Shown: positions 2,877 through 26,883 of the stretch, piece after piece
How the letters are laid out: every line of letters begins with the position of its first letter
Position numbering within the stretch: the first letter of the stretch is position 1
Assembly (NCBI GenBank): GCA_017525025.1
Contig: JAFXUJ010000007.1
Coordinates: forward strand, 62,001-126,000
Length of the DNA: 64,000 nucleotides
Source: Elusimicrobiaceae bacterium
GTDB taxonomy: Bacteria; Elusimicrobiota; Elusimicrobia; Elusimicrobiales; Elusimicrobiaceae
Direction: 5' to 3'
Position numbers and translations under genes: made by a program
Notes under the pieces: model-generated
Databases searched by the model: none
What the model was told of the DNA's origin: nothing
What the model saw: the letters and a program-made list of their open reading frames with translations, nothing else

Positions 2877-2884
2877 AAGAGGAT

Positions 2885-4510: not shown

Positions 4511-4513
4511 ACT

Positions 4514-5404: not shown

Positions 5405-5414
5405 AGGACAACTT

Positions 5415-6863: not shown

Positions 6864-6876
6864 CGAGGACAAAACA

Positions 6877-7983: not shown

Positions 7984-8006
7984 TCTCACATCAATTAGGA
8001 GAAAAT

Positions 8007-8276: not shown

Positions 8277-8295
8277 TAAGGGAGAAAGGCAATTT

Positions 8296-9240: not shown

Positions 9241-9263
9241 CAGCTGATTTTTTAGATGTATGG

Positions 9264-9296
9264 GCGGGGGCTGGAAAATGATCCGGCCCCCGCTTT
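9264..9296 (+). terminator. GC-rich hairpin after the lipoprotein gene
   Basis: An 8-bp perfect stem, GCGGGGGC with GCCCCCGC, is extended by TGG/CCG inside and followed by only TTTCCC. It may act as a weak terminator or partial attenuator between the pilus genes and the signalling genes. Confidence 0.5.
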
Positions 9297-9326
9297 CCCA
9301 AAAAACATCAAGCAGGAAAGGATCGG

Positions 9327-11243: not shown

Positions 11244-12324
11244 TAATAACTTGCGTGAAACCTTGGCTGATTTACTGGAAATTGAAGGTTATAAAGTTTA
11301 TCAGGCAGCTACTTCCGCAGAATGTTTAGAAATCTGCGCGAGTACATTTTTTAACGTCATTTTGATGGATTATAACTTGCCGGGGGAAAACGGCATGGAG
11401 TTGATCCGTAAAATCCGTTCGTTTAACAAAGATTCCCAAATTATTATGATTACGGCGTATGCTTCGCTCAATGCTATCATGGAAGCAATGCAGGAATCTG
11501 TATACGATTTCTTAATTAAACCGGTTGATTTTGATTATTTAAAACGCACCATCAACCGGGCCTTAGATAAATATTTCCTGGAAGAGAGCAACCGGCAACT
11601 TATGGCCCAGCTCAAAACGCGCAATGCGGACTTGGACCGACTTAACAACATGAAGTCTAAGTTCTTTTCTATCGTTTCACACGATTTATCTAATTCCTTA
11701 ATGACACTTAAAATGAGTTTTGACATGTTGCGCAAAAAAATGGAATTAAATGAAGAACAGCAAAAGAAAATCATGTTTATGGATGAATCTATCAGTCAAA
11801 TCGAACATTTAATTAAGGACCTGGTAGATTGGGCTGCGATTGAAAAAGGCAAACTGCGCATTGAGAAAACGCGCTTTGAATTAACGGAAAGTTTAAAAAA
11901 GACCGCCGAAATTTTTAAGGCCAAAGCCCTCAAACGAAATATTCAAGTTACGTTTGAAAGTTGCGGGTCCGTGCCTGTCTTTGCCGACGAAAAACGTATC
12001 CGGCAAGTAATCTCTAACTTGTTGGAAAATGCCGTCCGCCATACGCCGGAAAACGGAAATATTGCAATTGTTGTTAGCAAAATAGATGAAAAAAATGCTA
12101 AGGTATCGGTAACGGACTCTGGGGATGGTATTGCGCCGGATCAAGCTCCGTTGTTGTTTACCAGCTTTACCCAAGTGGGTGCCAAAGACCGTGTAGGTCG
12201 TTTGGGGCTGGGGTTGTCCATTGCTAAAGATATTATTATCAATCACGGCGGACGTATTTGGGCGCACAGCGAAGGACTCGGCAAAGGGGCCTCATTTAAT
12301 TTTACATTGCCGGTTGCAAACTGA
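11206..12324 (+). CDS. Receiver-histidine kinase hybrid without membrane segments
   Basis: This 372-aa soluble protein has an N-terminal receiver domain with Asp55 in ILMDYNLPGENG. A linker helix leads to a HisKA-like helix pair (His159 in IVSHDLSNSLMTLKM) and a HATPase domain with NLLENAVRHT, DSGDGIAPDQ and GRLGLGLSIA. A receiver in front of a kinase fits a relay protein that takes phosphate from the membrane kinase encoded just upstream, with which it overlaps by 38 bp. No output domain binds DNA, so the next gene (NarL type) is the likely final target. The start is supported by GGGAGAT 9 nt before the ATG. Confidence 0.9.
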   Translation: MEQPIKILVVDDDNNLRETLADLLEIEGYKVYQAATSAECLEICASTFFNVILMDYNLPGENGMELIRKIRSFNKDSQIIMITAYASLNAIMEAMQESVYDFLIKPVDFDYLKRTINRALDKYFLEESNRQLMAQLKTRNADLDRLNNMKSKFFSIVSHDLSNSLMTLKMSFDMLRKKMELNEEQQKKIMFMDESISQIEHLIKDLVDWAAIEKGKLRIEKTRFELTESLKKTAEIFKAKALKRNIQVTFESCGSVPVFADEKRIRQVISNLLENAVRHTPENGNIAIVVSKIDEKNAKVSVTDSGDGIAPDQAPLLFTSFTQVGAKDRVGRLGLGLSIAKDIIINHGGRIWAHSEGLGKGASFNFTLPVAN

Positions 12325-12349
12325 ATTTAAAAAACCAATGGAGTAAAAC

Positions 12350-13036
12350 ATGACTAAGAAAAAAATAACTGTACTGATAGCAGATGATCAAACTTTATTC
12401 CGGGAAGGAATTAAAGATGTTCTGTCTGGTGAGAGATGGATGGAAGTAGTGGGCGAAGCGGCCGACGGAATAGAAGCGGTTGCTAAAGCCAAAAAACTCA
12501 AACCGGATGTGGTATTGATGGATATTAAGCTTCCTAAGTTGGATGGTATCAATGCTACCCGTCAAATCCGCGAAGCTTGCCCGAGCGTCAATGTGCTTAT
12601 GTTGTCCAGCTTTGAAGATGAAGCCCATGTGTTGGATGCGATTCAAGCGGGGGCTAACGGCTATTTGTCCAAGATGCTTCCGGCAGCGGAACTTGTCAAT
12701 TCCATTAAAACCTTTACCAACGAAGGGCTGATGATTCCCCAACAACTTATGGGCAAATTGCTCCACGGCTTACGCAAGATGGGCGATGGGAATGCGCCTT
12801 CTCAATCTACGTTGACGAAAATGGAAATTAAGGTAATGGATTATTTGGGCAAAGGGCTTAGCAATAAGGAACTTGCCAAACAGCTTAACTGCAGTGTTAA
12901 AACAATTAAAAATCACTTAAACAGCGCTTTTCACAAATTAGGTGTCAGCAGCCGTACGGAAGCGGTGGTAAAAGCGATTGAAAAAGGGCTTATTTCTTCC
13001 GAAGGGTCTACCATCCCTGACGAAGAAGAGGAATAA
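12350..13036 (+). CDS. NarL/FixJ-type response regulator
   Basis: The 228-aa protein has a receiver domain (ADDQTLFREGIKDVL, Asp58 in VVLMDIKLPKLDG, Lys105 region YLSKMLP) and a LuxR-type helix-turn-helix at about 158-215. The helix-turn-helix contains TKMEIKVMDYLGKGLSNKELA and VKTIKNHLNSAFHKLGVSSR. It should bind DNA after phosphorylation. A short acidic tail (PDEEEE) ends it. It follows the two kinase genes by 25 nt and directly precedes the Flp pilin gene, so the pilin and the downstream cassette are the natural targets. That link is inference from gene order. Confidence 0.92.
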   Translation: MTKKKITVLIADDQTLFREGIKDVLSGERWMEVVGEAADGIEAVAKAKKLKPDVVLMDIKLPKLDGINATRQIREACPSVNVLMLSSFEDEAHVLDAIQAGANGYLSKMLPAAELVNSIKTFTNEGLMIPQQLMGKLLHGLRKMGDGNAPSQSTLTKMEIKVMDYLGKGLSNKELAKQLNCSVKTIKNHLNSAFHKLGVSSRTEAVVKAIEKGLISSEGSTIPDEEEE

Positions 13037-13045
13037 TACATATCT

Positions 13046-13216
13046 ATGTACAAGAGGGGTGCGAAGTGCCTGCGTGAGCGGCAGGGCCAAGCTACCGTGG
13101 AATATATTTTAATGTTGGCCACGATAGTAGTGGTGTTGTCGGCTTTTTTAACGGCGTTTCATACCGATATTGTACGTTTTTTCTTTACATTTATTGGCCA
13201 GTTGCTCATGAGTTAA
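13046..13216 (+). CDS. Flp-type pilin (56 aa)
   Basis: This short gene encodes 56 aa and fits the Flp class of type IVb pilins. A basic leader ending in Gly is followed by QATVEY and the hydrophobic stretch ILMLATIVVVLSAFLTAF. Cleavage after that Gly would place Glu at +5 and Tyr at +6 of the mature protein, the hallmark of Flp pilins. It is the probable main subunit of the pilus built by the upstream Tad machine. The ribosome site is weak: GAGG lies about 13 nt before the ATG. It lies 9 nt after the response regulator and 3 nt before the next gene. No prepilin peptidase (TadV/CpaA) is seen in this window. Confidence 0.88.
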   Translation: MYKRGAKCLRERQGQATVEYILMLATIVVVLSAFLTAFHTDIVRFFFTFIGQLLMS

Positions 13217-13219
13217 GTT

Positions 13220-14344
13220 ATGTTTACGCACCATTGGTTTTTTAGAAAATGGCAAGACCGCCGGGCACAGATTTTGTTGCCGGCGGTGCTTTTGGCGCCT
13301 ATTTTTATTTTGGTGATTTACTTACTGTTTGAAACGGCCAAAGTATCCATGACCAAAGTGCGCCAACAATTTGCCTTGGATAATGCTGCCTATTCGCAAG
13401 TTTCCGCCGCCAGTACGTATTTAAACGCGGTGGCCATGGTAAACGGGCCGCTCCCTTACCGTGTTTTACAATGGTACGGAACGGAAACCGAACCGTTAAG
13501 GCCCAGAAACGCGCAGGATCCGCCGTTAAGTATATTTGAACTTTTCTATAAAGGGGGCGGCGTACCCAGCATTGGCCCGGATTATGAAACGGGTATCAAC
13601 AAGCCCCCGGTGGCCGAATCTACGGATTGGGGATTAAAATATTACACGGGGGATGAGTTGGATAACGATGCTTCCCGTGAAGAATGGGAAAAAGAAAACC
13701 CCAAATTGCCCGATTCCACCGAAGAAATCCCGGTGATGAGTAGAAAACTGGTGGAAAATTATTATTTCCCGGGGACCAAAGAACTCGGGGTGCCGGTCAT
13801 CGTGCAATATCTGGAAACGTATGCGCGTACGGGCTCTATTTATAAATCACAGGATTATGTGTATAAAGAAGTCAGTAAAAATGCTTTCATGTTCCGCGAG
13901 GCATATTATTTAAACGTAAACGATTGTAAACGTTCGGAATGTGCGCGGCAAAGTGCTTCCCAACTGCGGCAGTATTTAGATTTAAAGACGAAACCCTTTG
14001 AATTGGACGCAATTAAATTTTATGTCTCAGAATCAAATGCCACGGGCACCTATCACGGTGGCGCGTATGATTTGCCGTTTAAAGCGACCGAATTATTGAA
14101 CGGGGACAAACTTTTCCAATTCGCATTTTTGGAACCGGCCAGCCGTAGTCGGTTGAAAGGGTTTTCGCGTGGGGTAATGCTCAAACAACCGTTTAAGTTG
14201 CCCCGTAACCATTTTAATATTAATTTAGAGCAAAAATATAAACCGTACGTACGTAACCGGGTAATCTTGTCTTGCCCGCGTGCCAGCAATAACTGCGTTT
14301 GGCCTAATCCGTTACCTAAATATACGGTTTCATTGGATCCGTAA
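13220..14344 (+). CDS. TadE/TadG-like minor pilin or pilus-associated protein
   Basis: The 374-aa protein has a short basic N-terminus (KWQDRRAQ) and one hydrophobic helix (ILLPAVLLAPIFILVIYLLFE, about residues 18-38). A long polar extracytoplasmic domain follows with four Cys, two near residue 235-240 and two near the end. The helix position and the sequence around RRAQ resemble TadE/TadG proteins, which carry an N-terminal pseudopilin-like segment. TadG proteins often have a vWA domain, which I do not see. It lies 3 nt after the Flp pilin and overlaps the next gene by 1 nt (TAATG), so this is one translational unit. The exact subfamily is uncertain. Confidence 0.68.
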   Translation: MFTHHWFFRKWQDRRAQILLPAVLLAPIFILVIYLLFETAKVSMTKVRQQFALDNAAYSQVSAASTYLNAVAMVNGPLPYRVLQWYGTETEPLRPRNAQDPPLSIFELFYKGGGVPSIGPDYETGINKPPVAESTDWGLKYYTGDELDNDASREEWEKENPKLPDSTEEIPVMSRKLVENYYFPGTKELGVPVIVQYLETYARTGSIYKSQDYVYKEVSKNAFMFREAYYLNVNDCKRSECARQSASQLRQYLDLKTKPFELDAIKFYVSESNATGTYHGGAYDLPFKATELLNGDKLFQFAFLEPASRSRLKGFSRGVMLKQPFKLPRNHFNINLEQKYKPYVRNRVILSCPRASNNCVWPNPLPKYTVSLDP

Positions 14345-14889
14345 TGAATAAACGTTTTTTTTATTTTCATTCACGCCGTGGGCAAGCCACTACCGAAGTG
14401 GTATTGCTGTTCCCGCTCATTGTAATTTTTATTTTATTTATTATTAAAATTTTCGGGCTTTTGGTACTCAGCCAAAAAATGGAAATTGCCGGATATTATG
14501 CCGCGAGGCGTTTCCAGTTGCAATCGCACGAAACGGATTATTACCAACGCACGTGGGATAAGCGTTTCTTGGAAAAAGACATCCAAGAAAAGGTGGAAAA
14601 TTATTTGGGCTTTGATAACCAGGGCATGCGTAAATTTTTAAGTCTTAACGAACTGAAAATGGATATTGCCCGTTCCGGTACCTGGACGAAGATTGTACTT
14701 ACTGCCCGCACCAAACCGCCAAACATTCGTTTTTTGTGCAACTACAATAAGGACCACGTTTGTGACCGCGATTCCAAGTGCTTAAAGGGGTATGCCTTCT
14801 TGTGCGAAACAGGGGGGGAAGTATCCGTCATTAAGTACGTAGGCAAAAACGAACGTCCCAACCCGTACCAACGCCCCGAAGGGAAATAA
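14344..14889 (+). CDS. TadE-like pseudopilin
   Basis: The 181-aa product begins with a short basic leader and RRGQATTEVVLLFPLIVIFILF, a TadE-type N-terminus: a Gly before Q-A-T-T-E with Glu at +5, then a membrane helix. Processing by a prepilin peptidase is plausible. The C-terminal part carries four Cys in a short stretch (FLCNYNKDHVCDRDSKCLKG plus one more), likely disulfides. It overlaps the previous gene by one base. This is the last gene with clear Tad homology; a promoter follows 60 nt downstream and starts the uncharacterised cassette. Confidence 0.8.
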   Translation: MNKRFFYFHSRRGQATTEVVLLFPLIVIFILFIIKIFGLLVLSQKMEIAGYYAARRFQLQSHETDYYQRTWDKRFLEKDIQEKVENYLGFDNQGMRKFLSLNELKMDIARSGTWTKIVLTARTKPPNIRFLCNYNKDHVCDRDSKCLKGYAFLCETGGEVSVIKYVGKNERPNPYQRPEGK

Positions 14890-14951: not shown

Positions 14952-14980
14952 TTGACAAATGGGGTTTTTCCACTTATACT
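14952..14980 (+). promoter_or_regulatory. Near-consensus sigma70 promoter for the 15079-21421 operon
   Basis: TTGACA (14952-14957), a 17-bp spacer and TATACT (14975-14980) form one of the best promoter matches in the window. A transcript would start near 14987 and have a leader of about 90 nt before the ATG at 15079. Confidence 0.82.
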
Positions 14981-14999
14981 TGTAGATAAGAGGAAGTGT

Positions 15000-15068
15000 A
15001 TGAACTCTGTGTTTGAGCGTTTCCCAAAGGGGAATGGGTCAACAAGAGTGATTTTTATTATGATGTAA
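15000..15068 (+). CDS. Possible 22-aa leader peptide upstream of the cassette
   Basis: Just downstream of the promoter an ATG at 15000 is preceded by AGAGGAAG at good spacing and opens a 22-codon frame ending in TAA at 15068, ten bases before the next ATG. The peptide (MNSVFERFPKGNGSTRVIFI then MM) shows no run of regulatory codons. A small hairpin (TTCCC-AAAG-GGGAA) lies inside. It may be a translated leader, or chance. Confidence 0.35.
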   Translation: MNSVFERFPKGNGSTRVIFIMM

Positions 15069-15078
15069 AGGGGTTTTT

Positions 15079-16521
15079 ATGTTTAAATTAAAACCGGGAA
15101 ATGTGTTCCAAAAGATGAATACTATGAACCGCAAACAAGCGTACACTTGGGGCGGTATCATTGTAGTTTGTTTTATCGCTTTGATTACTTTAGCATCCTT
15201 TATGGGAGATGCCGATGATGCCTCTTTTGACGGAATGGATGCCCGCGGGTACGATTTAGCCCAAATGCCATTCGTAAATGACGAAGCCGAACAGTATTTG
15301 TTAGCGGCTAAATATCCGGACATGCAAAATAATAACGCAACGGTTTTATATTCCGCGGCCGAGAAAGAAGCCCGACAAGAAGAAGATGCTGCCCGCGAAG
15401 CCGAAGAAGCCGATGAGGATGTGAGTTCGTATGTTTCTGCGCGTTCCCGGCGTAGTACGGGGGAAAACGACTCCTCCAATTATTCCCGGAGCAGAAACCG
15501 GGGAAGAGGGCGCACGGGAGGAACCGGCGGGCGCACGCAAGTGAATCAATTGAGCTCGGCTAACATGGGGCGCGCCAACGGAAGCGGTGTGAATAGTACG
15601 TTCGGCGCTCCGCGGGGCGATTTCTCCCCTTATAAAAGCCAAGAAAAAGGGAAGGAAACACCCGCCCAACTAAGAAACCAAGATGCTCGCAAAGCTTTGT
15701 ATCAAATGGCTCGCGGAAGCCAAGCCGCCGCCGGACTTAAAGACGGCAAAAGTGCTAACGCCAAAAGAGCCATGATGGGGGGCAATATTCAAGGCAGCGA
15801 AGCGTTTAGTGATAAAGGGGTAGACTTAGCCAAATTAGGTGGTTTAACCTTGGATACCAACGCTCCGATTACCTCTTCCGATTTGAGCAACCTGGACAAA
15901 GACGTCGCGGAAGGGGCCAAAAAAGCGGAAGACAAAAAAGATAAGGAAGATCAATCTTTAAAAGATAAACTGTTGGAACAGTTATATAGCGGTTTAATTA
16001 ACTTAGGCATGCAAGGGTTAGGCAATATGATGAACAAAGGGATTGATGCCATGTGGGAAGGCATTGCCGCTAACCGAGAAGGAAAAGCCTATGCCAACAA
16101 CGTCATTGAATCCATGAATGGAGTAACCCCAAGTCAATGTACCGATCCCGGTTGTCAGGCCATGGCGCGCGGATTTTTAGGAGATAATTATAACGCCTGG
16201 GCCAGCGGGGATTCTTCCTTTGGAGATTTTACGGAATCAAATGGTATAACTAAATATCAAATGCGTCATAATGCTTATGAGGCCGGTGGGTCTATGCCGT
16301 CCAGCATTTCTCCTACCAGAGGTACTGACGGCAACATCATGTATATCGGTGCCCCGGCGGATCCGCAAAACAATTTTGGAAATTCGTATCAAGAAGCCCG
16401 CGGAAGAGGATATTCCAATTATGTGGAACACCATTCCGGCAGCAGTGGGGTTGTGCCGGTAAAATGTAGCAACGGACAAACGGCAACTTACAATTCCCAA
16501 ACAGGGCAGTATGATTGTTAA
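15079..16521 (+). CDS. Uncharacterised anchored envelope protein A (Gly/Ser/Arg-rich)
   Basis: I do not recognise this 480-aa protein. A cytoplasmic N-terminus of about 22 residues precedes one membrane helix (TWGGIIVVCFIALITLASFM). The rest would be extracytoplasmic: an acidic alpha-helical stretch (EKEARQEEDAAREAEEADED), an Arg/Gly-rich region (NRGRGRTGGTGGRTQ), an Ala/Lys-rich region, and a short helical part with LLEQLYSGLINLGMQGLGNM. The C-terminal domain has four Cys and ends CSNGQTATYNSQTGQYDC. The ribosome site is AAGGGG. It is the first large gene of a cassette driven by a strong promoter. Neighbouring proteins share the anchor and low-complexity layout, so a structural surface role is my best guess. 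Confidence 0.75.
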   Translation: MFKLKPGNVFQKMNTMNRKQAYTWGGIIVVCFIALITLASFMGDADDASFDGMDARGYDLAQMPFVNDEAEQYLLAAKYPDMQNNNATVLYSAAEKEARQEEDAAREAEEADEDVSSYVSARSRRSTGENDSSNYSRSRNRGRGRTGGTGGRTQVNQLSSANMGRANGSGVNSTFGAPRGDFSPYKSQEKGKETPAQLRNQDARKALYQMARGSQAAAGLKDGKSANAKRAMMGGNIQGSEAFSDKGVDLAKLGGLTLDTNAPITSSDLSNLDKDVAEGAKKAEDKKDKEDQSLKDKLLEQLYSGLINLGMQGLGNMMNKGIDAMWEGIAANREGKAYANNVIESMNGVTPSQCTDPGCQAMARGFLGDNYNAWASGDSSFGDFTESNGITKYQMRHNAYEAGGSMPSSISPTRGTDGNIMYIGAPADPQNNFGNSYQEARGRGYSNYVEHHSGSSGVVPVKCSNGQTATYNSQTGQYDC

Positions 16522-16542
16522 TGGTTTTTAAGGGAGGGAATT

Positions 16543-18060
16543 ATGAATATCTTTAAATTCTTGAACAAAACGGGCAAAGTCGCACTTTCCGCCATGCAAG
16601 CCGTTGGCATAACGGCCGTGGTGGGGGCGGCCGGCGTGGGAGCGTGGCAGTATTTAAGCGGTCCCGCGGATGACAATAACGCTTTTAACCCGGCCCAATA
16701 TAACCCCGGGGAAGTGGTGTATGTATCGGGTGCCAATACGGGTGGTTATGCCAGCACCAACTACGGAAGCGGTGTGCCGGATTCTTCCGTGAGTGTATCT
16801 GCTCAAAATCTTAAACGCTTAGACCGCCAAGAACAGGCGGAACGGGCGGCGCGTGAAATGGAAGAAGAATCCTCCCAGTTTTATTCTTCCGGTGATTCCG
16901 GCCCCGGAGCATATCAAATGGGCGGTACGGAAGGGTTAGGTATGGGTGCCAATTATGTTGAAAATGCGAACTCGGATAGCAGCCCTATGGGTGCTATGCA
17001 GCAATCTATGGCGGGTATGCAAGCCATGATTAACCAGGCGCAACAACAAGTATCCGGCAAAGTAACCGATGGCACGCAACCGACCGGAAACGGAGCGAAC
17101 GCATTAGGAAGTGCCGCGCACAATTGGTCCCGCGGAACAGGTATTTCTGCCGGTGGCGGTAATGGGGGCGGATCGTCCTTTGCGTTACAAAATAGCGGAA
17201 AGAATAGAACCCGTGGAGGCCGTACCCGTGGCGGTATGGCGGCTGACGGACCGAATGCTTTAAACAATTTGCAAACGCAAGCGGCCGGAATGTTGGAAGG
17301 CCAGCGCATTCGCGGACGCTCCTCTTTTGGCTCTATGGATACGTTAGGGGCCAACCGGGACGCCAGTGTAGATAAAGGGCGTCGCGGTCGTAACGGCAAT
17401 AGTGATTTGGAATTTATCCAAAAGCGCTCGGCAGATGCTGCCGGCGATAGACACCGCTCTGTCAACGAAGGTTCGCGTGCTTTCTTGGCCAGCACACAAG
17501 TATCCGGCGGTATGCGTATCGCGGCGGAAAACTTTACCACGGGGCAAGGCCAAAGCTCTAAAGATTTTGACACCGACACCGAAGTACAGTTGCGCGGTCT
17601 GCGCACTTGGGGTGGTGATGTGGAGGCACGCGAAGCCCAACACGATGCGGATAGACAAGGTTTGTTATGGTTTACCGTCGGAACGGTAGTAGCCTCGTTG
17701 GCGCTTATGCTTACTATTTCGCTTACTAAGAATATTGCTCCTTATGGTTGGATTGCTGCCGTTGCTGCTACACTTGTATTAGCAGGGTTGTTGGTTGTGC
17801 TCGCCATAAAAATTGCCAAATACGCGGAATCGTGGGGCTGGGAAGGTATGACGATTGCCACTACGGTGGTTGCAGGAATCCTTGCGCTTGGAGCGGTAGC
17901 CGCCTGGACGTTTGGGCAGAGTTTCTTCTCTAAGATGGCTATGAAAGTAGCCAAGGCGTTTGGGTTAGGTGGAAAAATTGGAACAATCCTCTTAGGTGGA
18001 ACCAGTGCAGCGGGAGGCGTTGGAGCCGCCGTAGGGGGAGGCATGGATTTGAGGAAATAG
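16543..18060 (+). CDS. Uncharacterised envelope protein B (paralogue of D)
   Basis: The 505-aa product is of unknown family. It has an N-terminal helix (about 17-40) and a long Gly/Ser/Asn/Arg-rich region to about residue 360 with GTEGLGMGANYV and RTRGGRTRGGM. The block IQKRSADAAGDRHRSVNEGS..AFLAS follows, then a C-terminal module of three membrane helices (residues about 370-465) and a Gly-rich tail. The TEGLGMG motif, the KRSAD block and the multi-helix end recur in the protein encoded at 18351, so the two arose by duplication. The ribosome site is AGGGAGG. The low-complexity region would lie outside the inner membrane between two anchors. Confidence 0.75.
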   Translation: MNIFKFLNKTGKVALSAMQAVGITAVVGAAGVGAWQYLSGPADDNNAFNPAQYNPGEVVYVSGANTGGYASTNYGSGVPDSSVSVSAQNLKRLDRQEQAERAAREMEEESSQFYSSGDSGPGAYQMGGTEGLGMGANYVENANSDSSPMGAMQQSMAGMQAMINQAQQQVSGKVTDGTQPTGNGANALGSAAHNWSRGTGISAGGGNGGGSSFALQNSGKNRTRGGRTRGGMAADGPNALNNLQTQAAGMLEGQRIRGRSSFGSMDTLGANRDASVDKGRRGRNGNSDLEFIQKRSADAAGDRHRSVNEGSRAFLASTQVSGGMRIAAENFTTGQGQSSKDFDTDTEVQLRGLRTWGGDVEAREAQHDADRQGLLWFTVGTVVASLALMLTISLTKNIAPYGWIAAVAATLVLAGLLVVLAIKIAKYAESWGWEGMTIATTVVAGILALGAVAAWTFGQSFFSKMAMKVAKAFGLGGKIGTILLGGTSAAGGVGAAVGGGMDLRK

Positions 18061-18063
18061 CCT

Positions 18064-18336
18064 ATGCAAATCGGAAGCTTAGTTATTTTACCTTGGAGTT
18101 GGAAGAATTTTATCCCGCGTGTGCTTGCTTTGGTCCTTGTGTTTGGTTGGCTTGTTTGGGGCCTGGTAATTTTCTATGAAGGCCAACAAATAAAAGCGCA
18201 AATACGCAATCGGCAAGAGCAAGAGATGCGTGTAGAAGAACAACAACGCCGCGAGGCCGCTTACAAACAGCGGATGATGCAAGAACAAAACATTCGCCGT
18301 GGGGTGCGCAACGTAGTGGACGGATTTAAAAGGTAA
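18064..18336 (+). CDS. Small membrane protein C with coiled-coil tail
   Basis: The 90-aa product has a membrane helix at about residues 18-39 (VLALVLVFGWLVWGLVIFYE). A highly charged helical tail rich in Gln, Arg and Glu follows (RNRQEQEMRVEEQQRREAAY), probably a coiled coil. It sits 3 nt after B and 14 nt before D, so it likely works with these two paralogues. The family is unknown to me. Codon use and Gln/Arg content look like its neighbours, which supports a real gene. Confidence 0.7.
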   Translation: MQIGSLVILPWSWKNFIPRVLALVLVFGWLVWGLVIFYEGQQIKAQIRNRQEQEMRVEEQQRREAAYKQRMMQEQNIRRGVRNVVDGFKR

Positions 18337-18350
18337 CAAAGGAGAACCTT

Positions 18351-19826
18351 ATGAAATGGTTTGACTTATTAAAAAATAAAAACGGGAAACTGACCTTCGG
18401 CCTACCGCAAATGGCGGCTATTGCCGGGGTGGGGTTAGTGGTTTCCTTTACCGCTTTTCAGGCGGATAAAAAAGTTGCCGAAGAAGAACGGGTGCGCTCT
18501 CTTTCTGCTATCACAAACGGTTATAATTACGACGGTATGCGCCAGGTAGGCCGGGACGGATTAACCTCCATTAACGTGAAAGACGGTTTGAACCAAGTGG
18601 CCACTGCCGAAGAACGTGCCCGCTTGGAGCAGGGCCGCATGGGTGGCGGCGATTTTGGCCTGTCCGCTGCCGATAATTTAGGCGGTTCGGTTTCTTCTTC
18701 TCTTACCGGGCGTGCGGCCGAAACTACGGCCACGGAAGGGTTAGGCATGGGCCGTAACGCGGTGGTCATGCAAGAAGGGACCGGCACCGGACGTGGGAAC
18801 GGGAGGGGATCTCGTGTAAACACAGGCGCTTTGGGTCGCCGGGGGACAACGGGTCGCGGTAATTCATCTAATACGTTAGCACCCGTGGCCACCAACCATG
18901 CCGGGGGAAAGGGAATTAATGCTTCCTATGGGGGAGCCAATAACGGGAATTCCCAACCGGGTAGCGAAACGGGCGTTGGCAAAGGGGAAGGGTATCACTT
19001 TTCCGGCTCTATGCCCGGGGGCACAGATCCGCTTTCTATGCGCCATATCAATGGGCAGAACTCTACCTTTATGGCCGGCGGCCGTAATGCCACGGTGGGG
19101 CGAGGCCGCCAAACCGGAAGAACCGGTAATGATTTAAAAGATATTTCCAAACGCTCGGCGGATGTTGCCCGCAACGCTAACCGCGCCAGCAACGAAGGCG
19201 CCACCGCTTTCTTGGCCGGCGGCCGAAACTCCGGTGGTATGGATATCAATTCCGGCGTTGAAACCACGCAAACCGGCTCTGCCGATTTCGCGGCGGCGGA
19301 AGTCGGGCACGTGAAAGGTATTAAGAAATGGGGCGAACAAACAAGCGAGAAAACCGATAACATGGAAAAACATATGACGGCTCTATTTGCCTTATTGTTT
19401 GGTTTAATCGGGGTGTCTGCTTGGGCGTGGGGTGTTATCAAAACCGCCCGCAAACTGGGCACCGTACCATACTACGGTATGGCCAGTAATGCCTTGGCCC
19501 TCGGCGTTGCTATCGCGTTGACTGCGTTGTGGGCCGGGTTAGCCGGATATGCCATTTGGTACAACAACAAATTCTTTGCTGATAAGATCAGCAGCTTGGC
19601 GCTTGCTTCGTGGATAGGGGCCGGATTAGGTACACTTATCACGTGGATGGTCTACGCGCTTACCAGTGCGGAAACGAACGAAAAGGCCTTATCGGACTTG
19701 GCCGGATCCTTAACCGGTAAATTAAAAAGCGGAACCAGTTGGGTAGGTATGCAGGCGGCCAATATGGGAAAAACCGCTATTCAAGACTCTATGACCAAGT
19801 CGGATATGAAAGGCCGTAAATCTTAA
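18351..19826 (+). CDS. Uncharacterised envelope protein D (paralogue of B)
   Basis: This 491-aa protein has the same plan as B. It has an N-terminal helix near 20-38, then ATEGLGMGRNAV, a Gly/Arg/Asn-rich central region with repeated GRGNGRGSR-like patches, and the block ISKRSADVARNANRASNEGA followed by TAFLAGGRNSGGMDI. It then has KKWGEQT (B has RTWGGDV) and a C-terminal module of three or four membrane helices (about 345-435) with a polar tail. The shared motifs are spread along the whole length, so B and D are true paralogues. The ribosome site AAGGAG lies 7 nt before the ATG. Function is unknown; the shared block may be a contact site with a common partner. Confidence 0.75.
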   Translation: MKWFDLLKNKNGKLTFGLPQMAAIAGVGLVVSFTAFQADKKVAEEERVRSLSAITNGYNYDGMRQVGRDGLTSINVKDGLNQVATAEERARLEQGRMGGGDFGLSAADNLGGSVSSSLTGRAAETTATEGLGMGRNAVVMQEGTGTGRGNGRGSRVNTGALGRRGTTGRGNSSNTLAPVATNHAGGKGINASYGGANNGNSQPGSETGVGKGEGYHFSGSMPGGTDPLSMRHINGQNSTFMAGGRNATVGRGRQTGRTGNDLKDISKRSADVARNANRASNEGATAFLAGGRNSGGMDINSGVETTQTGSADFAAAEVGHVKGIKKWGEQTSEKTDNMEKHMTALFALLFGLIGVSAWAWGVIKTARKLGTVPYYGMASNALALGVAIALTALWAGLAGYAIWYNNKFFADKISSLALASWIGAGLGTLITWMVYALTSAETNEKALSDLAGSLTGKLKSGTSWVGMQAANMGKTAIQDSMTKSDMKGRKS

Positions 19827-19837
19827 AAGATATTTTT

Positions 19838-19867
19838 GGAGGGGAGGCCGGTTGCTTTCTCCCCTCC
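19838..19867 (+). other. Strong intercistronic hairpin between D and E
   Basis: GGAGGGGAG (19838-19846) pairs perfectly with CTCCCCTCC (19859-19867) around a 12-nt loop. No T run follows, so it is not a standard terminator. It may protect mRNA ends or lower readthrough between D and E, whose ATG lies 15 nt downstream. Confidence 0.6.
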
Positions 19868-19882
19868 GTCTAAAGGTACATT

Positions 19883-21421
19883 ATGAGCGAGCAACAAACA
19901 CCACAAGAACAAAACGAGAAACCGATAATAACACCGCGGGTCCCCAGTATGGGGGATCGGATCGCGGGGTTGTTTTATTCCAAGCGGGCCTGGTTAATTT
20001 TGGCTGCACTGGTTTTCTTGTTTGGTATTGGTGTGTTGGTGCCGGTGGGGAAGATTCCGCTCCTACGTCATTTGGTTTATGCGATGGGATACTCACGGGA
20101 TGAAGCCTCACACCTTTCTCTTTTAAAAGCTCTTTTCTCTTGGAATGATCATGCCGCTATGGCGCGCGGAGAACGGCCGGATCCGGATGGCCTTTCCGTA
20201 TTTGGAGAAGGGGGTGGATTTTTAAATAGTAAATCCGAAAAAGCAAAGAATAAACTGTTTGATTTACGCTCGGTCAATTCTTCTTTGGCTAAAAGAGGCC
20301 AACGGGGGGAGAATGTGCGGAATGCTTCCGGCCGCCCGGAAGGGGAAAACCGCCGCGCTTCCAATGTGCGGGTAGGAAACCCGGATGCTGCCGTTAATAC
20401 ACAAGCCAATCAAGCCAAACAAAGAGAAGTCTTTTTCGGTACGGACGCGGGGGAAATTGCCCGCGGTAAAACGGACGGTTTTAACTCGGTTAATTCCCTT
20501 AAAAAAATCAAAAACCCGAACATTGCCCGCGGTAGCGGCGGTTCTAATAGTTGGATGGACCGTTTGGTGGATAAAGCTGTCCGCACAGATTCCAATTTGG
20601 AAAATATCATGAAAAATGTGGATAAAAGCAGCAGTTCACTGGCCAAATTCAGCGATATTGATTCCATTGGCGATTCGCGTGCCAAACGCGATATGTATTA
20701 CGCTTGGCTTACCGGCCGTACTGCCCGACGTACCCCGCAAGTTGTATTAAAGAAAACGTTGGCCGCATCCGGTTTTAACGGGGCGGAAATGCCGCGCAGC
20801 GTATTTACCTCAACGGGATTTTCCGGCGTGGGGATCAACCCGGATGATGTAGTGGCCGATATGGACAGTGTGCAAAAATATTTAGATTTGGATAAAAATT
20901 GCCGGGAAGCTATTGAAAACGGATCCAATGAGGTGCCGACGTTTGATGAAATTAATCAAATAAAGGGTTCTATTATATCGTCTTTTGATAATGCCACCTG
21001 TCAAAGTGGTTTAGGTGGGTATAGAAATCATTTAACGGCCATGGCGACTAGATGTTCTCTAATGCTTCCTGCATACCAACATATTCAACAGGGTTGTGCA
21101 ACCCTTTCCATCGTTTTGAGTGATAGTCAGTGTCAATCTCTAACGCTAACGGCGTATGCAGATGCTTTTGAAAATTTTTGCCAGGACGAACTGAATACAT
21201 GTGAAACAAACTACCACGATGATCCCGAGGCCTTGCAAAATTGTATTAATCATGTCAATGCCTATACTACACATGAGAATTTTGATACTTATTACAGTGC
21301 GGCTAATTTGCCGTCGGTGGCCAATTCTATTTTCTTTAGAAATGGGGGGTTCAACACCGATTATTTCCCCGGTGTAGATTGGGCGCACAGCTTATGGGTG
21401 GATGAAGATGCCGGTAACTAG
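19883..21421 (+). CDS. Uncharacterised anchored Cys-rich envelope protein E
   Basis: The 512-aa product matches no family I know. A polar N-terminus of about 32 residues is followed by one membrane helix (AWLILAALVFLFGIGVLVPVG). A polar region rich in Asn, Arg and Ser follows (NVRNASGRPEGENRRASNVR). The C-terminal half, from about residue 330, carries eight Cys in regular spacing, consistent with four disulfides. Orientation is likely N-in, C-out. No good Shine-Dalgarno precedes the ATG (TAAAGGTACATT). It follows D by 56 nt with a hairpin between, and the next gene has its own promoter. Confidence 0.74.
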   Translation: MSEQQTPQEQNEKPIITPRVPSMGDRIAGLFYSKRAWLILAALVFLFGIGVLVPVGKIPLLRHLVYAMGYSRDEASHLSLLKALFSWNDHAAMARGERPDPDGLSVFGEGGGFLNSKSEKAKNKLFDLRSVNSSLAKRGQRGENVRNASGRPEGENRRASNVRVGNPDAAVNTQANQAKQREVFFGTDAGEIARGKTDGFNSVNSLKKIKNPNIARGSGGSNSWMDRLVDKAVRTDSNLENIMKNVDKSSSSLAKFSDIDSIGDSRAKRDMYYAWLTGRTARRTPQVVLKKTLAASGFNGAEMPRSVFTSTGFSGVGINPDDVVADMDSVQKYLDLDKNCREAIENGSNEVPTFDEINQIKGSIISSFDNATCQSGLGGYRNHLTAMATRCSLMLPAYQHIQQGCATLSIVLSDSQCQSLTLTAYADAFENFCQDELNTCETNYHDDPEALQNCINHVNAYTTHENFDTYYSAANLPSVANSIFFRNGGFNTDYFPGVDWAHSLWVDEDAGN

Positions 21422-21448
21422 GGGGCTTGCATATGAATAAATTACCCC

Positions 21449-21476
21449 TTGAAAAAATGAAATATATTGTTATAAT
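21449..21476 (+). promoter_or_regulatory. Promoter for the 1168-aa protein gene
   Basis: TTGAAA (21449-21454), a 16-bp spacer and a perfect TATAAT (21471-21476) lie just after the stop of E. Transcription would start near 21483 and give a leader of about 160 nt. Confidence 0.75.
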
Positions 21477-21501
21477 AAGAGTAAGAAGTGTTGGTGCGTG
21501 A

Positions 21502-21614
21502 GTTGTTACGGAGTGGGGGACCATCTCCGAACAACCGAATTTTATTATTGTGGTAATTGTTGTAAAGCGGGAAAGCGGCCGACGTACAACCGCTATCCCC
21601 GGGGGAAACCCCAA
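21502..21614 (+). promoter_or_regulatory. Structured 5' leader RNA of the 1168-aa protein gene
   Basis: The leader contains a long hairpin at 21502-21535: GTTGTT/AACAAC, CGGAG/CTCCG and TGG/CCA around GGGA, 14 pairs with two single-base bulges. A second possible stem joins GTTGTA and TACAAC further on. A third hairpin, GGGG-GAAA-CCCC with a GNRA loop, lies near 21601-21613, followed by the ribosome site AGAGGAGG. I recognise no known riboswitch class. It may control translation or mRNA stability. Confidence 0.55.
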
Positions 21615-21643
21615 AGCAGTTTTTATAGTAAGAGGAGGCTTTT

Positions 21644-24600
21644 ATGCCAGAAGAAAAAAAGAAGGAGAACTTTACGTTTAGCGATAAGATTAAAGATAGC
21701 AAGCAAACGGCTTCTAAATCTTTCGCCAAACGGTTTTCTTCTAAAATCGGGAGCGATGGCAAGCCGCGTCAAACGCTTTTTGAGCGTACCAAACGCGATG
21801 CACCATTCTTTATTGCCGCGCTGGTGGCGCTTTTGTTACTGCCGTTCTTGTATAAATACAGCGGCCAAGTGAACGAAGACGCCTCTATGGTTACGCCCGG
21901 TTATGAAGATGCTATTTTGAACCCGGATCGCTCCGGCTTTGATTTTACCGGCGATGCGGAAGGGCAAATTTCCCAACTTGCGGGACGCGATTCCATGGAT
22001 TTAATTGTCGGCTTCGGGAAAAAGAAAGACGAAGAATCCGACGAATCTTTAGATGAACTCTACCGTAGCGGCTTGTCGGATGAGGCTGCTGCGGCGGCTT
22101 CCTCTTATTCGCGCGATGATATGGATGAGGAAATCAACAATACCAACATCTATAAATACCGCAAGAACGCCCCGCGCCAAACGCGGGCGGCATTCCGCCG
22201 GGCGGCTACGAAAATTAACCGCTTGGGTAACGCCGGGCTGAAAGGCCGCGAAGGGGGAGTAAATATACAACCTTGGGGTGGCGGTTTAAAGAATGCCGCG
22301 CAGAAAGTAAAGGCTGACAGACCGCGCACGGCTCCTAAGCCGGTTTCCTTGCAGCCGTTAACGGCTACCGGTAAACCATCCCGTTCCTCCTTTGGTCAAG
22401 GCGCCGCGGCCGAAGCACGCCGCTCCAAAGACGCCATGGGTAAAAACAACCCGCTTCAAGCTCTTATGGACGCTCAAATGCGCCCGGTTGAACCGCATAA
22501 AATCGGCGGTATCGGCTCCGGCAATTTTGGCGGCCCGGGGGGCGGAAACGGCAGTTTACAGCGTCAATTTGCTTTTAACGGTAAAGAACCCTGGTGGTGG
22601 GATTTGATGAAAACCCGCTCCCAAATGGAATGGGAACGCCACTTCAACCGCAAATGGAAATACATTGATGCGTTGGATGATATCATCTTGGGTTTGGCTC
22701 GCTGTTTAATTACCGGTAACTCCGATGGCGACCCGGATACCTTCTTGGGTTCCGGTGGTGGTGCCGGCGGTAAAGAACCCAAATGTTGTGGTATGAAAGA
22801 AAAACGATGGAAGGCTATTCATCCTGAGATTGGATTCAATGAAAATGCTTGTAAGGGGTGGATGACTAGCCAGTTTGGAGAGAAATATAAAGAAAAATGT
22901 CCTAGTGGTTGGGAGGCCGGTCATGGCGGTGGTGAAGTTCGCTTAGGTTTCTTCGGAACTCGCTGGAATTGTTTGGGCGGATTAGTCCTGGGTGCTGAAA
23001 GAGGTTCCTTTGAGGACGGCGCCAACTGCGAAATGTTTGCCTCTCAAGGTATTTATGAGGCGAATTTCTCCAGCACGAAAGGGAAATCTTGGTATATTTG
23101 GCACTATGTAGTAGGGGTAGAAGCTAAAAACTTAGAAAAGTATTATAAAGCTTCTCCTTCCCAACAACAAGATTTACTTGAAATCTTGTACGTGGGAGAG
23201 GGCCCTGTTTATAACTTGGATTCCGATCCGGCCAGAAATATCAAAGGCATTCCGTTATTCGTGGAAAGCTTGGCTATCAGAGCCTGGAAAAAAGGAATTG
23301 ATTATAAACGGATTAGATTTGACTTGGAATCCGGCGCCGGTGTTGGCAGCACGTACCGCGAATTTGTAGGAAACTTGCGTAAACGTGGTGTGATCATCGC
23401 CGGTGATGGTTCGGACGCGGATCCGTATAGCGACATGTTTATTAAGAGAAGAGGCAAAGAAGGCAAGAGCTGGATTATCGGCGGCCGTTGCGACTACCCG
23501 CTCGCCCGCATCAGCTGCGAAACGCTTGCTACCGTCAGCCTTGGTGAAGGCGAAGCTACGGTGCAAGGGGTTCCGTTTGCCCACTTGTCCTTCTACAACG
23601 CTATGCAGGCGAACAATATCTACAACCAGATGAAGCATCGGTTTATCGTTGCTTATCATATCCAAGGTATAGATGATAATAGTGCTCCTACGGCGTTGTC
23701 GTCCAACTCCAATATTTCTACGGGACAATGGTATCAAGTGCCGTTGTACGATATCAAACCGTTTGATAAAACGGCAGATGATATATATCGTAACGAAAAT
23801 GAGTATGTGCGGGGCCAGGGTAAAGTAAAGGTTACCACGAACCGCTTGATGGATGAACGGGCCAACCTGCCGGGACAACAATACCAGGTATTGGCTACCA
23901 ATAAGGCGGTGGTAAACCAGATTAACTCTAACCAATCCCGGGTGGTTATCACGTGGGAAGTGCGCCAGTGCCCCGACGTGGAAATCAACGGTGCCAGTAT
24001 TACAAACGGCGGTTGTACAAATGGTAAGATTGCTACCTTTGACGGAGACGGCAACATCACTGGCTGGAAAGGACACTCTTTACCGGGTGTGGTAGTCAGT
24101 ACAGCTACCTGCGTCTACTCCAACGGCGAAGATGCCATCGGCCACCAACCGGGTGTGGAAACTTGTGAAGAAGGCGCTAAGAGTTTCTCACCCGATCCCA
24201 AAAAACCGGGAGAATGCCAAAAAGTGCGTGAATGTAAAGAAGGCGTTTGGACGGACTGGGTAAACAACCCGGACGATTCGGATTGTGACAAACCCGATGC
24301 CCCGTCCAGCGTGGAGCACTTTAAAGACCGTGTATCCAGAATCCCCGGCCATAATTGGGATCACTGTCTCTTGACGGTAGATAACCGCTTGTTACTGCCC
24401 AAAGACAGAGAAACACTTGAATATGTGGCTGCGGCCAAGGCTAAATTTGATGCTGAACATAAAGCGGAAAATAAAACCTTGGAATATAATGAGAACGAGT
24501 TGACAGTAGCCAACTTGGTGGATGCTATCCACATGGATCCGCAAAACGGAACGGTGCCGGCCAATACCGTCTGCTTGTTAGCTAAGACGATCGGCGCCGC

Positions 24601-25150
24601 CGCGCGTGACCCGCAAGTGTCGGACTTTGATAACTTGTTCGGCGCGTTCTTGGCGTTCATTGGGTATGATGCGGCATCTTTCCCCAGCCAGAAAACGACG
24701 GATTGTGACGGCCACATCATCACGGATAGACGCTTCCCCTGTAAGTTATATAGCTCGCAGTATTACTGGGGCGGATACGTCAACCAAACGGAACGTTTGA
24801 AATACGAGCAACAAGTCAGTGCGGCTGATAGCCCGTGGAGAGGATTCCCGCTCCGTGGTTTGATGCGCAACCCGTTGCCGCAAGTGAGAACCGGATATAT
24901 GAGCTTAACGGATAAAGAAAACCGTAAGCGCTTCCACAAAGAGTATGCGGACCTTATGGACAGAAATCCGTGTAATTATCCGGCCGGGCAAAAGTTGAAC
25001 CGTGCGGATGTGTTGGAATACATTTCCCGCCTCTGCGAATACGGCGAACATATTAAGCCCAAAGCCACTCGTAAATACAACTGTGACAGGATGTATTCTG
25101 ATGGGAATTTCCATAGCAAACGTGTAGATTGCTATCCGAACTGTCCCTAG
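21644..25150 (+). CDS. Giant uncharacterised Cys-rich anchored protein F (1168 aa)
   Basis: This is the largest protein of the window. It has a basic cytoplasmic N-terminus of about 48 residues, one membrane helix (APFFIAALVALLLLPFLY) and an acidic Ser/Ala-rich stretch. A basic Arg/Ala-rich region and a Gly-rich hinge (GGIGSGNFGGPGGGNGS) follow near residue 290. About 860 residues of complex sequence with roughly 27 Cys come next, including VRECKEGVWTDWVNNPDDSDC, which looks like a thrombospondin-like turn but is too short to assign. The end is VDCYPNCP. I recognise no family. Disulfides are likely, so it should be periplasmic or exposed. Own promoter, structured leader and strong terminator indicate separate control. 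Confidence 0.78.
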   Translation: MPEEKKKENFTFSDKIKDSKQTASKSFAKRFSSKIGSDGKPRQTLFERTKRDAPFFIAALVALLLLPFLYKYSGQVNEDASMVTPGYEDAILNPDRSGFDFTGDAEGQISQLAGRDSMDLIVGFGKKKDEESDESLDELYRSGLSDEAAAAASSYSRDDMDEEINNTNIYKYRKNAPRQTRAAFRRAATKINRLGNAGLKGREGGVNIQPWGGGLKNAAQKVKADRPRTAPKPVSLQPLTATGKPSRSSFGQGAAAEARRSKDAMGKNNPLQALMDAQMRPVEPHKIGGIGSGNFGGPGGGNGSLQRQFAFNGKEPWWWDLMKTRSQMEWERHFNRKWKYIDALDDIILGLARCLITGNSDGDPDTFLGSGGGAGGKEPKCCGMKEKRWKAIHPEIGFNENACKGWMTSQFGEKYKEKCPSGWEAGHGGGEVRLGFFGTRWNCLGGLVLGAERGSFEDGANCEMFASQGIYEANFSSTKGKSWYIWHYVVGVEAKNLEKYYKASPSQQQDLLEILYVGEGPVYNLDSDPARNIKGIPLFVESLAIRAWKKGIDYKRIRFDLESGAGVGSTYREFVGNLRKRGVIIAGDGSDADPYSDMFIKRRGKEGKSWIIGGRCDYPLARISCETLATVSLGEGEATVQGVPFAHLSFYNAMQANNIYNQMKHRFIVAYHIQGIDDNSAPTALSSNSNISTGQWYQVPLYDIKPFDKTADDIYRNENEYVRGQGKVKVTTNRLMDERANLPGQQYQVLATNKAVVNQINSNQSRVVITWEVRQCPDVEINGASITNGGCTNGKIATFDGDGNITGWKGHSLPGVVVSTATCVYSNGEDAIGHQPGVETCEEGAKSFSPDPKKPGECQKVRECKEGVWTDWVNNPDDSDCDKPDAPSSVEHFKDRVSRIPGHNWDHCLLTVDNRLLLPKDRETLEYVAAAKAKFDAEHKAENKTLEYNENELTVANLVDAIHMDPQNGTVPANTVCLLAKTIGAAARDPQVSDFDNLFGAFLAFIGYDAASFPSQKTTDCDGHIITDRRFPCKLYSSQYYWGGYVNQTERLKYEQQVSAADSPWRGFPLRGLMRNPLPQVRTGYMSLTDKENRKRFHKEYADLMDRNPCNYPAGQKLNRADVLEYISRLCEYGEHIKPKATRKYNCDRMYSDGNFHSKRVDCYPNCP

Positions 25151-25163
25151 TAATCAGTAATTT

Positions 25164-25198
25164 AACCCCCGAAAGCTTGAAGCTTTCGGGGGTTTTTT
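25164..25198 (+). terminator. Strong intrinsic terminator of the cassette
   Basis: CCCCCGAAAGCTT and AGCTTTCGGGGG form a near-perfect 12-bp stem around GA, followed by TTTTTT. It ends the transcript of the 1168-aa protein gene. Confidence 0.92.
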
Positions 25199-25212: not shown

Positions 25213-26883
25213 ATGCGTAAGTGGGGTTTACTTTTTATTCTTTTTTTGTGCGTAGGGGCCGTGCCTGTACAAGCGCGGTTTCCGTTTTCGTTTCGCAAAG
25301 CAGAAATCAAAACCGATTATTCCCAAACCGTGTGGGATCAAATCATGCAAGACCAAGCCCGCACCGATATCCGCCGTGGTATGGGGGAAATGAGCCAAAC
25401 CCGCTATAAAGAAGCGTCTAACAGTTTTGCCAAAGCCGTTATCAAAAATGCAAAAGATCCGTTGGGGTATTTGCTGTTGGGGGCATCGTTATATTGGGAG
25501 GGCAAAGTAGATGATGCTATCAGCGAATATAAGGAGGCCCTGCGCTTGGACCCCAATAACGCCATGGCCTATCAACTCTTAGGTATTGCCGCCGGGTGGA
25601 AGGGCGATATTCAAACTGCGCAAGAAAATTTCCTGGAAGCAAACCGCTTGGACCCGAATAAAGCCGATACACATATGAACTTGGGCTCTACTTATGCCGT
25701 ACAAAATGATTTGGAAAAATCATTGGAGCACTTCCGCCGCTCAACTGAGCTTGCTCCGCGAGAACCGCTTTATCATCATCAGTTGGGCACTTTGTACGAA
25801 GCCCTCGGACGAGATGAACAAGCCGAAGAATCTTTTAAAAAAGCACTTCATTATTTTGCCGCCTACGAAGATGCCCAGCTCAGTTTGGGAGCTTTGTACG
25901 AAAAAATGAATCAGCCGCAAGAGGCACTCAAATTTTATAAAAAAGCCGTTAAAACAAAACCCGGTGATTATGTGGCGCGGCTGCGTTATGCGTTTTTGCT
26001 TTTGCGCCAAGGGCAAGAAAAACAAGCGCGCGAAATTCTGGAAGAAGCATTTTCTATCTCTAAATTTAAAGCGGACGGTTTGGCACTTAATGCGGTCTAT
26101 CGCGCCAGCGGCACCACCCCGCAAGCATTTGAAAAACAAATTGAAAAATTTACGGATAATCTCTCTAAGGTGGCGCCGTCCAAACCGGTGCAAATAGAAG
26201 TGGAAGTGCAGTATGAGCCGCCCTCTACCGCCAGAACCGGCAATAAGAAAAGCGGTTCTTTTGAGCGCGAATATCAAAAATTCCGGGCAGCCCAGTCTCT
26301 GCAAACGGCCGGGGATAGCCGTACCTTTAAACGCATGTTTACTTTGCCTTCTGCCTCGGCGCAAGAGCGCGCGGAGCAGATTGATCGGTTTGCGCAGGGG
26401 TTGCGGGAAGTTGTTTCACAAGGGGAAAAAGGATATAAAGTGAATTTATCGTTGCAAGGCCGCACGGCGGATCATGCGGCTCCGCATGCGCTTACCCAAA
26501 ACGGCACGGTACCTAAGGCTGTATACGATCCGCGTATCGTGGGTAACGATATGGGCTTATGGGTCATGGGGCGATCTTGGTTGGAATTTGTAACAGATGC
26601 CCAGGAAGAATTGCAGGAATATACGTGTTCAAATGGAAATTTGTGTGAGCTGTTAAAGGGGTTGGCCGGTTTGGCACAAGGAAACGGCGCCGCCGCCCAA
26701 ACGTATTTTGAACGGGCAGTACAAATTTCATCTACGGACGAGTTGGCTGAATTGGGCTTAGGTACGGTGTACGTGGTAGAGGGGGAAGATGAAAAAGCGC
26801 GCGAACATTATTTACGTGCCTTGGAATTAGATCCTCATAACAAAACAGCCGCGCGGAATTTAAAAGTATTGGCAGATGATTAG
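25213..26883 (+). CDS. Secreted TPR-repeat protein
   Basis: I chose ATG 25213, which opens directly onto a signal peptide (MRKWGLLFILFLCVGAVPVQA); a longer in-frame start at 25129 would run through the upstream terminator. The 556-aa protein has at least six TPR units in its first 300 residues (YLLLGASLYWEGKVDDAISEY, AYQLLGIAAGWKGDIQTAQE and others) and one or two near the end (LGLGTVYVVEGEDEKAREHY). A middle part without repeats separates them. It should be periplasmic and serve as a scaffold for protein contacts. It stands alone after the cassette and before rsmA; a link to the surface system is possible but unproven. Confidence 0.85.
   Translation: MRKWGLLFILFLCVGAVPVQARFPFSFRKAEIKTDYSQTVWDQIMQDQARTDIRRGMGEMSQTRYKEASNSFAKAVIKNAKDPLGYLLLGASLYWEGKVDDAISEYKEALRLDPNNAMAYQLLGIAAGWKGDIQTAQENFLEANRLDPNKADTHMNLGSTYAVQNDLEKSLEHFRRSTELAPREPLYHHQLGTLYEALGRDEQAEESFKKALHYFAAYEDAQLSLGALYEKMNQPQEALKFYKKAVKTKPGDYVARLRYAFLLLRQGQEKQAREILEEAFSISKFKADGLALNAVYRASGTTPQAFEKQIEKFTDNLSKVAPSKPVQIEVEVQYEPPSTARTGNKKSGSFEREYQKFRAAQSLQTAGDSRTFKRMFTLPSASAQERAEQIDRFAQGLREVVSQGEKGYKVNLSLQGRTADHAAPHALTQNGTVPKAVYDPRIVGNDMGLWVMGRSWLEFVTDAQEELQEYTCSNGNLCELLKGLAGLAQGNGAAAQTYFERAVQISSTDELAELGLGTVYVVEGEDEKAREHYLRALELDPHNKTAARNLKVLADD

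Follow-up and report, generated by a model that had tools for sequence, protein, structure and literature searches.

Tad (Flp, type IVc) pili are widespread, and the accessory parts that adapt them to a particular lineage are poorly known. An in situ model of the Caulobacter Tad machine has been presented (PMC13170226), a survey has recorded Tad in Elusimicrobia (PMC6668835), and the Kil system of Myxococcus is described as a Tad-like machine in which some parts are specialised and the tips are adaptable (PMC8460266, PMC12075869). Here we describe a cassette of six genes, A to F, found downstream of the Tad genes in a 64,000-nucleotide (nt) stretch of DNA from an Elusimicrobiaceae bacterium (GenBank assembly GCA_017525025.1, contig JAFXUJ010000007.1, positions 62,001 to 126,000 of the forward strand), hereafter the window, together with a structured RNA, the leader, that lies between the cassette promoter and gene A.

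The nearest comparison is the Tad pilus itself, whose parts TadZ-TadA, TadB, TadC, TadD, TadE, the secretin and two Flp-like pilin open reading frames (ORFs) are present at the same locus; the A-F proteins differ in that they match no Tad component family in Pfam or NCBIfam and have no prepilin signal. The adaptable tips of the Kil system could be a parallel to the variable half of protein F, but the Kil tips are described as belonging to the pilus, whereas A-F are devoid of the prepilin motif. The OmpA/Pal peptidoglycan-binding proteins (PF00691) resemble the C-terminal domain of F in two genera (g2 and g3 below), with the difference that in F this domain forms part of a long protein anchored in the membrane at its N-terminus and that it is undetected in the F protein of the window. 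The leader shares with known cis-regulatory leaders (riboswitches, attenuators and protein-binding leaders) the location in the 5' untranslated region (UTR), covariation, conserved loop bases and a U-rich tail, but the copy in the window is unmatched in Rfam 15 and the element was seen solely alongside these genes, in a single bacterial family.

By synteny and co-occurrence, A-F would be a Tad-associated accessory system, that is, a previously unrecognised envelope protein set that travels with Tad and bears its own RNA label. Such a label picks out members of the set that have moved, joins unlinked genes in one putative regulon, and offers an RNA that can be probed for a ligand or a protein. 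A new and strongly covarying leader that stands outside Rfam and appears dedicated to one surface system should be of interest to RNA and cell-envelope specialists.

The cassette and its association with the Tad genes

Genes A-F occupy positions 15079-25150 on the forward strand, with a promoter and a terminator at the two ends of the cassette. Its features are, in window coordinates and with gene starts that were chosen mechanically:

14952..14980, + strand, cassette promoter, sigma-70-type, TTGACA-17-TATACT, 11 of 12 consensus matches
15003..15061, + strand, structured leader RNA, a stack of helices whose internal-loop bases are conserved, then a U-rich tail
15079..16521, + strand, gene A, 480 amino acids (aa)
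16543..18060, + strand, gene B, 505 aa
18064..18336, + strand, gene C, 90 aa
18351..19826, + strand, gene D, 491 aa
19883..21421, + strand, gene E, 512 aa
21449..21476, + strand, promoter-like site TTGAAA-16-TATAAT in the 222-nt gap between E and F
21644..25150, + strand, gene F, 1168 aa
25164..25194, + strand, strong intrinsic terminator of 14 pairs closing the A-F unit

Judged by the promoter and terminator signals, A-F is one transcription unit. The promoter was kept in all 30 loci re-examined, where it lies upstream of the leader, and was also seen upstream of A in aligned loci, a conservation that goes beyond what a chance match would show. At the other end, folding of 15 loci, the window among them, gave a strong hairpin 3' of F in every case. 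An earlier sequence-only reading of this DNA, made without database searches, had already placed a near-consensus promoter after the last TadE-like gene and, on the same strand as the tad genes, ORFs for five large proteins and one small one, all of which we recovered. The tight spacing that it described holds for most of the cassette (3-56 nt between genes), save for the 222-nt gap ahead of F, where the second promoter-like site is a possible internal promoter for F.

The association with Tad was surveyed in a sample of 341 genomes of the phylum Elusimicrobiota, in which the relatives of the window are for the most part metagenome-assembled genomes (MAGs). The family of the window is labelled f1 and its sister family f2, and the genera are labelled g1 to g6; the source genome itself is 1.55 Mb in 17 contigs, and many of its close relatives come from the animal gut. 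The conserved set consists of A, B/D, E and F, often with C, and was found by profile throughout f1 and in a few f2 genomes. The F profile matched 88 genomes, nearly all of them f1, with weak matches in five f2 genomes, and TadZ-TadA was present in 86 of these 88, the exceptions being two fragmented MAGs (G176 and G193). The position of A could be judged in 31 fetched f1 genomes, and in 24 of these A comes directly after TadE (18 of g1, five of g2 and one of g4). This survey of gene neighbourhoods, which had been proposed along with the sequence-only reading, thus revealed synteny with the Tad genes across three genera.

The order TadE-A-B-C-D-E-F-T-ksgA, where T is a neighbouring gene described below, is conserved across g1, and in g2 the order is A-A'-B-C-E-F-T. 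In genome G034 (g3), assembled as one contig of 1,643,562 bp, the set is dispersed yet kept: F lies at 646 kb, the pair A-B at 711 kb and the group E-T-ksgA at 772 kb, and Tad is found at 1.30 Mb in an operon that stops at TadE. The f2 genome G210 shows the order A-B-B-E-F at low identity, with A and E called by profile, F called weakly, and both B genes assigned by position and appearance only. Sequence divergence may conceal more members of the cassette beyond the order.

Genus g6 (L150/L157/L160, G133:C10, minus strand) has six long Gly/Ser-rich ORFs after TadE, several of them B-like in topology, which at the G133:C10 locus are followed by an E-like and then an F-like gene.

The leader RNA

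The leader (about 60 nt) was missed by the sequence-only reading. It emerged in an alignment of the region upstream of A from 22 loci as an element conserved on both sides of a variable centre, following the conserved promoter, and a pattern search then gave the 37 distinct copies on which the structure alignment is based. The fold is a single long interrupted hairpin. It has a five-pair stem (P1), an inner helix whose loop bases are conserved (GUGUUUGAG / GGUCARCA) and an outer helix (P3) that is variable. Among the 18 pairs, 11 show compensatory changes, and P1 changes between genera from ACUCU/AGAGU to GCUCC/GGRGC; the copy in the window scores 72.2 bits.

The covariation was compared with 500 shuffled alignments and with controls in which the register of the pairing was slid. 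Standard pairs make up 96.8% of the paired cells in the 37 sequences (81.2% in shuffles), the compensatory cells number 118 (36.2 in shuffles), and the covariation score is 0.564 (0.240 in shuffles), in a control that leaves the relatedness of the sequences in. None of the 500 shuffles reached the observed share paired, number of compensatory cells, number of pair types or score, while in 12 of them doubly changed pairs were at least as numerous as observed. The slid registers gave only 38-49% paired, in a control that keeps relatedness but favours the structure derived from the same alignment. Each leader core is also more stable than shuffled versions of itself (z -2.9 on average, -1.5 in the weakest case), and at least six U were found within 8 nt after the stem in 36 of the 37 leaders, a tail that was not called in a terminator scan of the window. 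Taken with its recurrence at independent loci, where it occupies the 5' UTR of homologous genes, the covariation identifies the leader as a predicted cis-regulatory structured RNA.

A covariance model of the leader detected it in 81 of the 341 genomes, all of them f1. There is one copy in each g1 genome with a hit, two in five g2 genomes that have both A and A', and two in three g3 genomes. In G034 the two copies are found 65 kb apart, at 646150 before F (start 646294) and at 711418 before A, each with a promoter of its own, and in G195 and G196 a copy is also present just upstream of F. In the 30 loci checked, more than half of which come from genomes outside the building of the model, A follows the leader in 29, and the last one ends near a contig edge. 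All strong located copies precede A, A' or F, and in a relaxed search of 11 genomes the next-best matches reached at most 24.8 bits, compared with 38-72 bits for the cassette copies. The 24.8-bit match (G000:C2:139183, in the source genome of the window) was set aside, being located just past the 3' end of an opposite-strand ORF and terminator-like. It appears from these searches that the leader is dedicated to the A-F regulon.

Covariance model searches gave no convincing match in f2 or in genera g5 and g6, and the leader was not found ahead of F in G013 and G095, where F is unlinked, nor ahead of E in G034. Rfam 15 holds no match for the leader of the window or for the other loci with the element. 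We found no published description of the leader or the cassette, and the main text of a large RNA survey of human microbiomes is without Elusimicrobia.

In the f2 genomes G210 and G028 the only shared element seen upstream of A was a similar promoter (CTTGAMA...CTATAACATAG; L184 5690-5730, G028:C11), with no leader detected.

The A-F proteins

None of the six proteins matched a Pfam or NCBIfam family, in agreement with the initial impression that they belong to no known family, and profile searches of Pfam, NCBIfam, PHROGs and PDB sequences stayed at chance level, save for an OmpA-like domain in distant F proteins and a weak spanin-like match of C. Hits to a known secretion or conjugation system, which would have spoken against a new assembly, were looked for with the family and profile searches and none appeared. 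A phage collection gave no match for F and a plasmid collection none for B.

Hydropathy analysis predicts an N-terminal membrane helix in all six proteins, behind a tail of 12-51 residues with net positive charge. The helix, the short cytoplasmic tail and the long outside parts had been noted before, but three further C-terminal helices in B and D had been overlooked, and because of these B and D are predicted to be polytopic (four helices each), whereas A, C, E and F have one helix each. In B a long Gly/Ser-rich segment separates the N-terminal helix from the three C-terminal ones; D has the same topology, and the two are paralogues (hhalign 100%, E 1.7e-56). In A the motif RGYDLAQMPFVNDEAEQYLLAxKYPDM is conserved behind the transmembrane helix and the ectodomain is rich in Gly, Arg and Ser. 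Protein C consists of a single transmembrane helix and a charged helical tail, and its weak match to Rz-like spanins (phrog_214, E 3.7e-5) probably stems from this combination of helix and charged coil. Cysteines number 25 in F, eight in E and five in A, and several are invariant in F and E, in the latter within the ectodomain behind its single transmembrane helix.

Protein F begins with a basic cytoplasmic tail of 51 aa containing the conserved sequence FTFSDKIKxSK, followed by the transmembrane helix. The N-terminal half (about 490 residues) is well conserved, and the C-terminal half is Cys-rich and fast-changing. In g2 and g3 only, an OmpA-like domain was found in this C-terminal half: PF00691 was matched in four of eight segments, with a best value of 9.7e-5 that falls just below the curated Pfam cut-off, and the C-terminal profile of these genera matched many OmpA/Pal structures in the PDB (best E 2.4e-5).

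In G042:C11 (L104 5161-9164) F is present in two frames of 304 and 1023 aa, and may be broken or the result of an assembly error. That A, B/D, E and F descend from one ancestor by way of a shared module of about 45 residues was considered and is not claimed; hints of the module were seen by eye and in weak profile matches (A with F, 87% probability; B with E, 76%), and other profile pairs failed.

Proposed role and alternative explanations

The explanation that we favour, and consider somewhat more probable than otherwise, is that A-F form a co-regulated envelope complex, anchored in the inner membrane, that serves the Tad machine of the Elusimicrobiaceae. Transcription would start at the cassette promoter, and the leader would gate expression of the set after initiation by permitting elongation or translation, so that A-F are made together; the hairpin with its U-rich tail would be attenuator-like, and the conserved internal loop would be read by a ligand or a protein. 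Once inserted in the inner membrane, the proteins would join into an assembly that surrounds the Tad apparatus. In it B/D would make up a membrane platform and F would extend to the cell wall, as suggested by the OmpA-like domain in two genera, and the variable outer half of F would adapt quickly. The resulting periplasmic structure would support or position the Tad machine.

Several results weigh against this explanation. TadZ-TadA was matched in 265 of the 341 genomes (E below 1e-100) and F in 88, so that many Tad carriers are without a detectable F; because of this the cassette would be accessory to Tad and outside the core machine, unless very divergent versions of F were missed. In seven of the 31 f1 genomes (two g1, four g2 and one g3) the cassette or parts of it are found elsewhere than after TadE. 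The profile search detected no OmpA-like domain in the F of the window, single-sequence structure models were poor (predicted local distance difference test scores of 42 for E and 48 for B) and provide no fold that backs a complex, and the folding energy of the window leader with its flanks is only moderately unusual (z -1.6), the case for the RNA resting on covariation. The suggestions of the sequence-only reading on function must be tempered accordingly: cooperation with the Flp pilus is backed by the adjacency to TadE and the co-occurrence with TadZ-TadA, but adjacency is not universal and Tad often occurs without F; an envelope-spanning assembly is backed by the membrane anchors and the OmpA-like domain of g2 and g3, but not by such a domain in the window; and nothing in particular supports a role as adhesin or sheath.

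Alternatively, the cassette could be an envelope or surface system in its own right which merely sits beside the Tad genes, the co-occurrence being due to common ancestry in one family where nearly all members have both. The cassette or its parts are unlinked from Tad in G019, G103, G040, G042, G013, G095 and G034, the cassette has its own promoter, leader and terminator, and F is undetected in most Tad genomes of the phylum. The adjacency to TadE in 24 of 31 genomes from three genera speaks against this, however, as does the finding that the only genomes with F and no TadZ-TadA are two fragmented MAGs, and we rate this alternative as the less probable one. It is far more difficult to see A-F as minor pilins or secreted Tad substrates; their synteny with TadE and TadG would fit, but the prepilin peptidase motif GxxxxE is absent near the N-termini of all six and present in TadE, and B and D are polytopic, which together make this very improbable.

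Concerning the control of the cassette, the sequence-only reading pointed to a signalling relay just upstream, and a histidine kinase, a hybrid kinase and a LuxR-type regulator are indeed encoded there. They are part of the Tad operon, and because they are retained in genomes whose cassette lies elsewhere they are not an obvious controller; the leader, being apparently dedicated to the cassette, is the better candidate regulator. That the inverted repeat is no RNA at all but a DNA operator for the LuxR-type regulator is hardly credible. The outer segments are palindromic and the response regulator is encoded about 2 kb upstream, but the spacing of the half-sites differs greatly between copies, following the variable stem, and pairing is nevertheless retained, and G-U pairs are frequent, and for these two reasons we prefer an RNA; in addition the site is downstream of the promoter and the element precedes unlinked A and F genes. 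If the leader is an RNA, it could be a metabolite-binding riboswitch, for instance for a second messenger, which concerns the leader only and is compatible with the complex proposed above. Conserved internal-loop and bulge bases among covarying stems, the 5' UTR site between promoter and start codon and the U-rich tail would all suit a riboswitch; however, there is no similarity to any Rfam riboswitch, the genes downstream are structural only, with no enzyme or transporter to name a ligand, and a protein-binding leader fits equally well, so a riboswitch is rather doubtful. We would also advance, tentatively and with more doubt than the envelope complex itself, that the leader is either a riboswitch of a new class or a target for antitermination and alone defines the regulon of an envelope machine of unknown type working with Tad pili, A-B-E-F being a multi-subunit system so far found in one Elusimicrobiota order only.

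The Tad operon and neighbouring genes

The genes on both sides of the cassette are:

513..14889, + strand, Tad operon
25213..26883, + strand, gene T, a tetratricopeptide repeat protein whose N-terminus is hydrophobic, conserved next to F and ksgA

The ATG of gene T is found near 25213, past the cassette terminator. The Tad operon encodes a TadZ-TadA fusion, TadB, TadC, TadD, a HAMP protein, a thioredoxin-like lipoprotein, the histidine kinase, the hybrid kinase, the LuxR-type regulator, a TadG-like protein and TadE. Its first genes in the window are a secretin domain, TadZ-TadA, TadB, TadC and TadD, and its last two are TadG-like and TadE. In the fusion, TadZ (CbiA/MinD-like) and TadA form one protein of 787 aa (window 513-2876). 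The secretin is short and extends barely beyond the secretin domain (window 21-509 and the preceding sequence), with frames of about 250 aa in relatives. In the thioredoxin/DsbA-like lipoprotein (window 8296-9240), which is conserved in the family, CPYG replaces the CxxC active site, and the Pfam match is weak (E 0.047).

The Flp_Fap model of Pfam (PF04964) gave no match above its cut-off in the phylum sample, but the idea that Flp pilins are absent was dropped, as two small Flp-like pilin ORFs sit upstream of the Tad genes (L137 10030-10212 and 10237-10473; G000:C7 about 60029-60472), with the sequences GQTAVEY... and GQNTIEYVLMLVVVV.... Just upstream of the Tad genes there is also an ORF of 1813 aa together with a 326-aa protein (L137 3503-10027; G000:C7 53502-60026), the latter of which we take to resemble the PorV/PorQ outer-membrane proteins, and genes similar to the two are present at other Tad loci of the family.

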